Assembly (NCBI GenBank): GCA_003105035.1
Contig: PQAL01000005.1
Coordinates: forward strand, 1-64,000
Source: Anaerolineales bacterium
Lineage (GTDB): Bacteria > Chloroflexota > Anaerolineae > Anaerolineales > UBA4823
Direction: 5' to 3'
Length of the DNA stretch: 64,000 nt
How positions within the stretch are numbered: the first letter of the stretch is position 1; each line of letters begins with the position of its first letter. The notes beneath the pieces are model-generated. The model searched no databases. It was not told the origin of the DNA and worked only from the letters and a program-made list of their open reading frames with translations. The translations under genes were made by a program, and so were the position numbers. Shown here one piece after another: positions 36,528 through 40,116 of the stretch.

Positions 36528-36655
36528 GTCGTGAGTTTACCACAAGAAATCCTCATATGCTTCACATTAAGCTCATGTGAGTAACCAGCTCCGCCAGATA
36601 AAATCTGTACTTTCACTGGTAAAATTAGCCGACATATTCATCTATGGAGAAGTGC

Positions 36656-37942
36656 ATGCGAAAGTTCATCCTTTTTTTACTGCTTCTAGGAGCGGTTGTC
36701 CTGGCTGGCTGTCTGCCTCAAACACAGGCGGCACTTCCCACGGCAACACCGACAGAACCTGTTAAACCTGCTCCTAACAAGGCATTGGTTCTTCCAACTC
36801 AGGCAGCTCTCTTTCCCGACTCCGGTTGTACCGTAGTTGCTAAAAATCCAACCTCTCCAACTGCGGAACCTGGCTACCCTCCCATCACGGATCAAGATTG
36901 GACGAAAGGACCCGCAGATGCCAAGGTAACCATTGTCGAGTATTCTGATTTTCAGTGACCATATTGCGCTCAGCTTGCTCCCGTGATGGAGCAACTCCTC
37001 AAACAATTTCCTGATGATTTCCGCTTTGTCTACCGCAATTATCCCCTCATCGGTACCCCTGAGCAACCTTTCCATGATAAAGCCGCCCTTTCCACCCAGG
37101 CTGCTGAAGCAGCCGGTAAACAGGGCAAGTTCTGGGAAATGCACGATGTTCTGTTTAATAATCAATCCGAATGGTCTACCCTTAGTGTGACTGATTTCCA
37201 GCAGTGGCTGATTGCGAAAGCTGGTGAGATCGATCTGGATGTGGACCAATTCACTGCTGACCTCAACAGTCCTGAGCTGGTCGCTCTGGCGCAAAAAGCC
37301 TGGGACGACGGTGGGAAAATGCGATTATCCGGTACACCGTCCCTCTTTCTCAATGGTGAGACATGGCCAAGTAACGTTCCCATGAGCGAGTCCAACCTGT
37401 CCTCGGTCATCAAGCTCACCTTGATTGAAGATCGCCAGTTCACCCAATGCCCGCCCATGAAAATCAATACCACTAAGCAGTATCTCGCTACCTTGCACAC
37501 TGAAAAGGGCGATATCGTCATCGAGCTATATCCTGATAAGGCTCCCCTGGCTGTCAACAGCTTTATCTTTCTGGCTCAAAACGGTTGGTTTGATGGAGTC
37601 ACTTTTCACCGTGTCATCCCCGATTTCGTTGCCCAGGCTGGAGACCCAAGCGGGACCGGTTACGGAACTCCGGGCTATGCCTTCGAGAATGAGATTTCCG
37701 ACGATCTCAAGTTTGATGCTCCAGGGATGGTCGGTATGGCCAATGCAGGTGCTGATTCGAATGGAAGCCAATTCTTTATCACCTACAGCGCGCAGCCCAC
37801 ACTGGATGGAAAATACACCATCTTTGGTCATGTCCTCCAGGGGATGGATGTGGTGAAAAACCTTGCGCCGCGCGATCCTTCCCAGAGTGCTGAGCTTCCC
37901 CCAGGGGATAAGATCCTCAGTGTAACCATTGAGGAAAAATGA
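36656..37942 (+). CDS. probable selenoprotein: DsbA-like thioredoxin domain fused to cyclophilin, lipoprotein (UGA read as Sec at residue 101)
   Basis: Read through the in-frame TGA at 36956-36958, this is one 428-residue protein. It has a lipobox (Leu-Ala-Gly-Cys), a Thr/Pro-rich spacer, a DsbA/DSBA-like thioredoxin domain (about 85-270) and a cyclophilin-type peptidyl-prolyl isomerase domain (about 277-428; Phe-His-Arg-Val-Ile-Pro, Ser-Gln-Phe-Phe-Ile). The TGA falls exactly where the family has the first cysteine of Cys-Pro-Tyr-Cys: Tyr-Ser-Asp-Phe-Gln-UGA-Pro-Tyr-Cys. The cis-proline is Pro228. A SECIS-like hairpin follows. ATG 36656 has GGAG 6 bases upstream. The protein would form or isomerise disulfides and help fold exported proteins. 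A sequencing error or pseudogene is the alternative. Confidence 0.8.
36972..36996 (+). promoter_or_regulatory. SECIS-like hairpin downstream of the UGA
   Basis: TTGCTCC (36975-36981) pairs with GGAGCAA (36988-36994) around the 6-base loop CGTGAT; two more pairs (AG/CT) extend the stem past a bulged C. The stem begins 16 bases after the UGA and the loop 23 bases after it, with a G as its second base. These values fit the published pattern of bacterial SECIS elements, which lie inside the coding region just after the UGA. Confidence 0.65.
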
Positions 37943-37999: not shown

Positions 38000-39451
38000 A
38001 TGATCGCTTCTGGTATTTCTAACAAGCCCAATAAGGCGCCATTAGACCGGCCTTTGCTGATCCAGCTGGTGCTGAGTGTGCTGTTTTCATTTATCCTAAT
38101 TGCTGCTGCCGGGGTTTTCGTAATCGCCGGCATTTACCAATTCTATTCTCAGGGTTCAGCCGGGCAGAATGTCACCCAGTCATTTATGCTGGCAGGTAGC
38201 CTGGCATTTGCTGGAGCACTTGTCATTCCATCCGCCTGGTATGCCTGGAAGCACATCGCTTATCCCCATGCTCAGCGAGCAGAGAAACCTGAACCACGCA
38301 GGTTTGGTTTGATCCTGACCTTAATCACCTTGATCGGTTCTGGTTTGGCATTGATCATTGGCAACCTGGTCGCGCAAAACGACCAGATCGCCTGGTTGAT
38401 CCTACCACCACTCAATATCATCGCCACGGGTCTGCCTGCAATATGGGTGATATATTTTGGCACCCGTGGCTTGCTTCCAAATATTCCCCGCTATAAGTGG
38501 GGTGTATTTGCTAGCGGCCTTGTACTGGGACCCTTGATCATCCTGATCATCGAGCTGGCGATGCTCATCGGTGTGGGTATCCTGGCAATCGTTTGGATCA
38601 TGCTGGACCCCACCCTTGCCCCTCAATTCAGTGGCTTCTTACACCAGCTGCAGACCATGGGTACTAATCCTCAAGCCATCTTGAATAACCTGCCAACTTT
38701 CCTGCTGAATCCGGGCGTGTTGTTCATCGGCTTTGCCTTTGTGGCTGTGCTGGTTCCAATCGTGGAAGAGACCTTCAAACCGATCGGGGTGTGGTTCATG
38801 GCAGGTCGAAAAATCACCCCCGCCCAAGGCTTTGGCTTCGGTGTATTGAGTGGAGCCGGTTTTGGCCTTTTTGAGAACCTCGGAAACACCAGTGCTGGAG
38901 GCGAAAGCTGGGCTTTGCTCGCAGGTTCACGTATCAGCACATTGTTATTGCATAGTTTTACTGCTGGGTTAGTCGGCTGGGCTCTGGCGTACGCCTGGAG
39001 TGAGAGGCGTTTTCTCCGGCTGGCAGTCTGTTTTGGCATTGCCATCCTGATACACGGCTTATGGAATGGCATGGCAATCCTCAGTACCGCATCATCCCTG
39101 GAAGGGTTGGTACCCATCTCCTTGCCCACCTGGCTCCAAACCCTGGCTACCATCGCTACTCCTGGCATTTTCGTCCTGGGTTTGGCTGTGGTAATTGGTT
39201 TCTTCCTGTTCAATGCCTCCCTCAGGCAAAACCTGGCTACCGCCCCGCTTCCTGCAGCAGAGAATGTCAATAATGCTTATCCGGAAGCTGCCTTACCATC
39301 ACCAGAGACTTCACTTCCTGCATCCACACCCGGCGGTCCGCTCACTCCACCCCTTCAAGCAGCAGTAGATAAGCCTTCCTCTACTGTACACGAGCTACCT
39401 CTTCAGACTTCGCCTGAAATTCCACCAAAAAAATCGGAAACTAAACCATGA
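38000..39451 (+). CDS. PrsW-type intramembrane metalloprotease
   Basis: A 483-residue polytopic membrane protein with about nine to ten helices. PrsW-family motifs are present in the membrane part: Glu-Glu-Thr-Phe-Lys-Pro near residue 256 (the EExxK motif), Gly-Phe-Gly-Leu-Phe-Glu-Asn near 290, His-Ser-Phe-Thr near 318, and His-Gly-Leu-Trp-Asn-Gly near 352. The last 70 residues form a Pro/Ser-rich cytoplasmic or surface tail. In Bacillus PrsW starts anti-sigma factor cleavage; no anti-sigma factor is visible here. It overlaps the DedA gene by ATGA. TATACT at 37992-37997 is too near the ATG to be its promoter. Confidence 0.82.
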   Translation: MIASGISNKPNKAPLDRPLLIQLVLSVLFSFILIAAAGVFVIAGIYQFYSQGSAGQNVTQSFMLAGSLAFAGALVIPSAWYAWKHIAYPHAQRAEKPEPRRFGLILTLITLIGSGLALIIGNLVAQNDQIAWLILPPLNIIATGLPAIWVIYFGTRGLLPNIPRYKWGVFASGLVLGPLIILIIELAMLIGVGILAIVWIMLDPTLAPQFSGFLHQLQTMGTNPQAILNNLPTFLLNPGVLFIGFAFVAVLVPIVEETFKPIGVWFMAGRKITPAQGFGFGVLSGAGFGLFENLGNTSAGGESWALLAGSRISTLLLHSFTAGLVGWALAYAWSERRFLRLAVCFGIAILIHGLWNGMAILSTASSLEGLVPISLPTWLQTLATIATPGIFVLGLAVVIGFFLFNASLRQNLATAPLPAAENVNNAYPEAALPSPETSLPASTPGGPLTPPLQAAVDKPSSTVHELPLQTSPEIPPKKSETKP

Positions 39452-40116
39452 ATATCATTAAGCAAATCATAGACCTGATCCTGCACCTTGATAAGTACCT
39501 CGGGCAAATCATCCAGAACTATGGTGTCTGGACCTATGCCCTCCTGTTCTTCGTGATCTTCATGGAGACTGGTTTCGTAGTCACCCCATTCTTGCCTGGC
39601 GATTCGCTAATTTTCGCGGCGGGTACATTTGCCGGTATGGGATATCTTAACTTTTGGATCTTGTGGATCGTCCTGTGTGCAGCAGCCATTCTTGGCGATA
39701 CCGTGAACTACTGGATCGGGCATTATATTGGCCCTCGTGCTTTTAGTGGGAGTGTCCGTTTCTTAAAGAAGGAATATCTCGACCGCACACATGCTTTCTA
39801 TGAGAAACATGGCGGTAAGACCATCATCATCGCCCGTTTCATCCCCATCATCCGCACCTTTGCCCCCTTTGTAGCCGGTGTTGGCGCCATGACCTACCCC
39901 AAATTTATTTCCTACAACATTATCGGGGGTGTTGCCTGGGTGTCGCTGTTCTTACTTGGGGGGTATTTCTTTGGTGGGCTGCCTTTCGTCCAGAATAATT
40001 TCTCCTTTGTAATTGTAGCCATTATCTTAATATCCCTCCTGCCAGCGGTTATCGAGGTGATTAACAGCCGTCTTCAAGCTCGTAAACAAACCGAGCCACC
40101 TGCTAGCATTTCGTAA
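39448..40116 (+). CDS. DedA family membrane protein
   Basis: A 222-residue SNARE-associated/VTT-domain protein. Family motifs are Phe-x-Glu-Thr-Gly near residue 38, Phe-Leu-Pro-Gly-Asp-Ser near 49, and Gly-Arg-Phe-like Ala-Arg-Phe-Ile-Pro-x-x-Arg-Thr-Phe-Ala-Pro near 130 with the conserved arginines, then Gly-Gly-Val-Ala-Trp. DedA proteins are linked to lipid scrambling/undecaprenyl phosphate recycling and envelope homeostasis. It is translated from an ATG overlapping the stop of the PrsW gene. Confidence 0.9.
   Translation: MNIIKQIIDLILHLDKYLGQIIQNYGVWTYALLFFVIFMETGFVVTPFLPGDSLIFAAGTFAGMGYLNFWILWIVLCAAAILGDTVNYWIGHYIGPRAFSGSVRFLKKEYLDRTHAFYEKHGGKTIIIARFIPIIRTFAPFVAGVGAMTYPKFISYNIIGGVAWVSLFLLGGYFFGGLPFVQNNFSFVIVAIILISLLPAVIEVINSRLQARKQTEPPASIS

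Follow-up and report, generated by a model that had tools for sequence, protein, structure and literature searches.

Does the TGA at 36956-36958 of the window, the 64,000-nucleotide stretch of DNA analysed here, end a gene, mark a damaged one, or encode selenocysteine (Sec)? The first-pass annotation favored the last of these after noting two same-frame ORFs split only by this triplet, which stands at the first Cys of a CPYC motif, and translation gives the same picture. Positions 36656-37942 (+) form one frame, interrupted only by the TGA at residue 101 and closed by a final TGA, and with TGA translated as U the surroundings of residue 101 read YSDFQ-U-PYCAQLAP. Under this translation, and in alignment with full-length homologues, the frame constitutes a complete predicted selenoprotein gene of 428 residues with UGA as codon 101, and a GGAG at 36646-36649 (+), 6 nt 5′ of the ATG at 36656, is its probable ribosome-binding site. 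Mechanical ORF calling cuts the gene at the UGA, making it easily overlooked.

The encoded protein has the architecture expected from the first-pass annotation, namely a UxxC thiol oxidoreductase joined to a prolyl isomerase on a lipoprotein. Its signal peptide (36656-36712, +) carries the lipobox LAGC at residues 16-19, with predicted lipidation at Cys19, and of the 62 homologues whose upstream frame is complete, 52 have a lipobox-like motif. A DsbA-like domain occupies residues 81-248 (36896-37399, +), where Pfam reports Thioredoxin_4 (E = 5e-20) and also DSBA (E = 5e-16), both over their cut-offs. The U-P-Y-C motif spans 36956-36967, and its Pro102 and Cys104 are invariant across all U forms (homologues with UGA at this site), while Pro228 (37337-37339, +), the predicted cis-proline of the thioredoxin fold, is invariant in 138/138 alignment rows. 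A cyclophilin-type peptidyl-prolyl isomerase domain follows at residues 279-423 (37490-37924, +), supported by Pfam Pro_isomerase (E = 6e-44; 150.6 bits against a cut-off of 21.7), solved relatives, Foldseek and the FHR...F..Q signature, of which R319, F324, and Q327 are present. The cis-proline and the complete cyclophilin domain are thus kept downstream of the UGA, as had been claimed. An AlphaFold2 model built with seven sequences (mean pLDDT 71, pTM 0.59) is best in the thioredoxin domain and has a helix at residues 102-117, directly following residue 101; its Foldseek fold matches are mostly cyclophilins, plus the thioredoxin-like oxidoreductase 3gyk. On the 3′ side of the fusion gene (window 38000-40116) lie genes for a PrsW-type protease and DedA/VTT-type proteins. 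Of 72 loci checked over limited flanks, 52 have a PrsW relative next to the homologue and 22 have a DedA relative there.

A TGA in one assembly could arise from a sequencing or assembly error, or from a nonsense mutation in a decaying gene, and the assembly is indeed a draft in 43 contigs. Homologues were sought among 60 relatives and, within the class, in 396 genomes, with 80 further genes fetched, and six more were added from a named genome collection, where they are entered as uncultured Chloroflexi, Chloroflexota, Anaerolineaceae, Anaerolineales or Anaerolinea, in line with the Anaerolineae proposed at first pass. At alignment column 101, the 144 homologous loci have TGA in 75 cases, a Cys codon in 51 and another codon in 18; for the 138 genome-search loci only, the counts are 73 (from 72 genomes and 12 families), 48 and 17. 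The alignment with Cys-containing homologues that had been suggested as a check finds Cys at the identical column in 51/144 loci. With the same-column TGA recurring in 72 genomes of 12 families, an intact and conserved frame downstream, and a covarying hairpin that tracks the UGA forms (described below), error or decay is exceedingly improbable, and the first-pass view that the gene is not decayed stands. Judged from sequence, the fusion gene is a genuine selenoprotein gene rather than a product of decay or sequencing error.

Unrelated residues at this site had been named as evidence that would speak against Sec, and they do occur, in 18 loci; these are mostly in family f12, largely separate from the others and hairpinless, and all remaining loci have TGA or Cys. 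Among f12 homologues (e.g., L049-L052, L054-L056, L058, and L059), the place of Sec/Cys is taken by Ser, Thr, Ala, Asp or Glu. The second Cys is retained in 12 of 17 rows with neither Sec nor Cys, and most of those genomes have selA. One apparent second TGA, in homologue L199, proved to be merely its terminal stop. In a sample of 400 genomes from across the phylum, fused homologues at E < 1e-50 were found, among the matches listed, only within the class, and the matches listed outside the class cover the cyclophilin part alone.

Recurrence of the codon leaves the question of how it is read. The UGA might be decoded as Cys or Trp, through suppression or a variant code, or might serve as a regulated stop yielding a short lipoprotein, in either case with no use of selenium. 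Cys would be chemically suitable at this site, since it is found there in 51 loci, and failed Sec insertion would likewise leave a product that stops after residue 100. Against this, the genome encodes the complete set of factors that the first-pass annotation had proposed to look for: a tRNA-Sec (72.6 bits; anticodon UCA according to ARAGORN), SelA, SelB, and SelD (profile matches of 556, 335, and 364 bits, respectively). The fusion gene and its neighbors also terminate normally, the fusion gene itself in TGA, and the same genome has two or more further genes with a UGA at a redox site. Given, in addition, that a hairpin accompanies the UGA and is mostly missing from the Cys forms, as detailed below, a selenium-free reading is very unlikely. 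selA was found in 64 of the 72 genomes with U forms, the eight without a match being bins at most 90% complete; SelA is common in the class (320/396 genomes), so this co-occurrence is a matter of consistency rather than discrimination.

Other in-frame UGA codons were seen in the same genome. selD (L237, C25:31327-32262) is likewise predicted to encode a selenoprotein: it contains an in-frame UGA, and a strong 7-bp hairpin with a GUG loop follows at a spacing of 33. A second Dsb-like gene (L239, C2:84075-84704) has an in-frame UGA at L239:1696 in the context LIEFSDYQ-U-PYC; it scores 147 bits against the NCBIfam model NF041057, under the model’s cut-off, and its hairpin has 6 bp, a spacing of 28 and a weaker energy of -6.0 kcal/mol. 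A TGA flagged at a separate cyclophilin gene (C36:142500) was set aside, as it sits just upstream of that gene’s apparent start.

Incorporation of Sec at this UGA would call for a SECIS, and a hairpin at the expected distance, with a G near the start of its loop, had been noted at first pass. The published rule for bacterial SECIS elements, as quoted in a recent source, describes a loop of 3-9 nt, a stem of 4-16 bp, a G in the first two loop positions, a spacing of 16-37 nt and an energy of at most -7.5 kcal/mol (PMC13188914). The window hairpin, TTGCTCC-CGTGAT-GGAGCAA at 36975-36994 (+), falls within every one of these limits: it has a 7-bp stem, a 6-nt loop (CGTGAT, 36982-36987) with G at position 2, a UGA-to-loop spacing of 23 nt and an energy of -9.1 kcal/mol. 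Compensatory changes among relatives, set out below, bear out the earlier claim further. When this gene was synonymously recoded, 7/7 pairs formed at the same place in 0.7% of trials. In energy, the stretch after the UGA does not stand out from its synonymous recodings (z-score 0.1), and the case for this candidate SECIS accordingly draws on position-specific pairing and on relatives. An Rfam search of 36900-37100 returned nothing relevant.

Across the family, RNAalifold returned no structure when given the 70 UGA sequences as one set, because two hairpin positions were mixed; splitting the set resolved this. Type A, to which the window hairpin belongs, occurs in families f1 (the window’s), f7, f8, f55, and f59 and in single members of f24 and f49, and pairs +19..+25 with +38..+32 (counted from the U of UGA) around a CGUGNU loop. 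Standard pairs fill 92.9% of the pair cells in its 32 sequences, both sides have changed in five of the seven pairs, and covariation scores 0.398, compared with 0.132 for shuffled alignments (reached in 0/500 shuffles) and 0.109 for the best slide, figures to be read with the proviso that types A and B are defined by the pairing itself, which favors per-group covariation by construction, and that kinship among sequences inflates shuffle comparisons. Type B (families f17, f24, f25, f30, f49, and f68; alignment A2) has the core CGTCTGGTAGACG and lies at +32..+52, with a loop of GGU, GUU or similar, a spacing of 37-38 nt and, before it, a weaker first hairpin; six of nine pairs are changed on both sides. 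L185 and L203 match neither type, and these two together with L201 have an 8-bp hairpin with a spacing of 17 and a GGN loop. One genome, G350, holds two UGA copies of the fusion gene (L164 and L200), one with each hairpin type.

The association of hairpin and codon was measured by calling a hairpin wherever at least 6/7 pairs were present at position A or B, with pair sets taken from the U sequences, and by synonymously recoding each gene with pooled codon usage in 300 trials. A hairpin A or B was called in 66 of 70 distinct U sequences, compared with 9.7 expected and a maximum of 18 in any trial, in 4 of 51 Cys sequences (2.5 expected) and in none of the 18 others. Applied with at least 5 bp required, the published rule picks out 55/70 U, 3/51 Cys, and 0/18 other sequences. 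This distribution weighs both against error or decay and against a selenium-free decoding of the UGA.

On a tree of the 138 rows, calculated with active-site columns removed, the distribution of U, Cys and other states takes 24 changes. Tips with Cys lie nested between clades of U forms, and residues other than Cys and Sec are confined, with few exceptions, to a single region, f12; being unrooted, the tree counts changes between Sec and Cys without giving their direction. The hairpin types follow the families apart from single members with the other SECIS type, L198 in f49 and L200 in f24, and the local protein sequence (APV..Q vs. RLVD) accompanies hairpin type. The SECIS has probably been exchanged within one orthologous family while the Sec codon stayed fixed, giving spacings of 23, of 37-38 and, in a few cases, of 17. 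If so, the SECIS would have relocated inside a single gene family, with one class lying at the outer edge of the spacing range that is accepted.

We put the probability of the whole reading, a SelB/SECIS-dependent, lipid-anchored foldase with two activities, seleno-DsbA and cyclophilin, at roughly 93%. On this reading, tRNA-Sec and SelB would decode the UGA at 36956 as Sec, with the predicted SECIS at 36975-36994 recruiting them, and the product would be exported to sit outside the cytoplasmic membrane on a lipid anchor. The DsbA-like domain would use U-P-Y-C as its redox center, with Sec101 attacking and Cys104 resolving, the cyclophilin domain would isomerize Xaa-Pro bonds, and both domains together may act on secreted proteins. 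The computation establishes the structure of the gene, its domains, the conserved UGA, the covarying hairpin and the presence of the Sec machinery; that Sec is inserted in the cell, that the protein is lipidated and that its domains cooperate is what we infer, along with both activities, the redox direction and the substrates.

The role of the redox domain is where a further alternative has to be weighed. Selenols are strong nucleophiles and reductants, and the protein, while still a selenoprotein, could instead employ its DsbA-like domain on extracytoplasmic thiols, in a peroxidase or reductase role, and not in folding as a disulfide oxidase or isomerase. A CcdA/DsbD-type (DsbD_TM) protein encoded in the genome could supply electrons to it, and the cyclophilin signature is not universal, with R, F, and Q conserved in 63/73, 62/73, and 63/73 U homologues, respectively; with these residues substituted in part of the U forms, PPIase activity may not be a property of all of them. 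The DsbA/Thioredoxin_4 architecture, the cis-proline, the attached foldase domain and the VKOR oxidase encoded in the same genome suit protein folding, and a peroxidase or reductase role is unlikely, if still deserving consideration. Since VKOR and the CcdA/DsbD-type protein are both encoded, oxidation, reduction and isomerization are all possible for the DsbA-like domain of the proposed foldase.

Cyclophilin-type peptidyl-prolyl isomerases are usually separate proteins. The domain found here resembles them (PF00160) in being complete and in having the FHR...F..Q signature, and differs in being fused behind a seleno-DsbA domain, while the same genome also encodes a separate cyclophilin, at C36:142500. 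UxxC DsbA-like and DsbG-like selenoproteins are established (PMC1088965, PMC13188914), with the latter listing NF041057, the Rcas_1661 thioredoxin-like (seleno)lipoprotein, as a DsbG-like UxxC selenoprotein (PMC13188914). NF041057, a thioredoxin-like lipoprotein family that includes UxxC selenoproteins, is the best NCBIfam match of the fusion protein (residues 9-213, E = 8e-20); the score, however, is 71.4 bits against a cut-off of 190, and the NF041057 model, 247 positions long, is cyclophilin-free. Likewise, form 1 of the DsbA-like selenoproteins (PF01323) shares the DsbA domain with UxxC, but, going by the descriptions in the main texts, the cyclophilin/prolyl isomerase part sets the fusion apart (PMC1088965, PMC13188914). 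Neither of those main texts mentions a cyclophilin or prolyl isomerase, the main text of a 2026 review lacks the cyclophilin fusion, and searches of open-licence papers turned up no prior account of either the fusion or Rcas_1661, though one may exist elsewhere. Because the UxxC kind is known and the cyclophilin goes unmentioned in both main texts, we class the fusion as a new version of it; dozens of related species have the same gene, which points to a real, apparently unlisted kind of selenium protein. Among the hairpins, the type A element of the window conforms to the bacterial consensus in stem, loop, G, spacing and energy, whereas the 37-38 nt spacing of type B is at or just past the 16-37 nt range (PMC13188914). 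The variants with Sec, Cys or other residues and with differing hairpin distances form a natural data set on the retention, replacement and loss of Sec and on the tolerance of SelB. Compared with what these sources list, the bacterial selenoproteome would gain a two-domain foldase architecture, seleno-DsbA plus cyclophilin, found in 72 sampled genomes, which would place selenium chemistry in extracytoplasmic protein folding.
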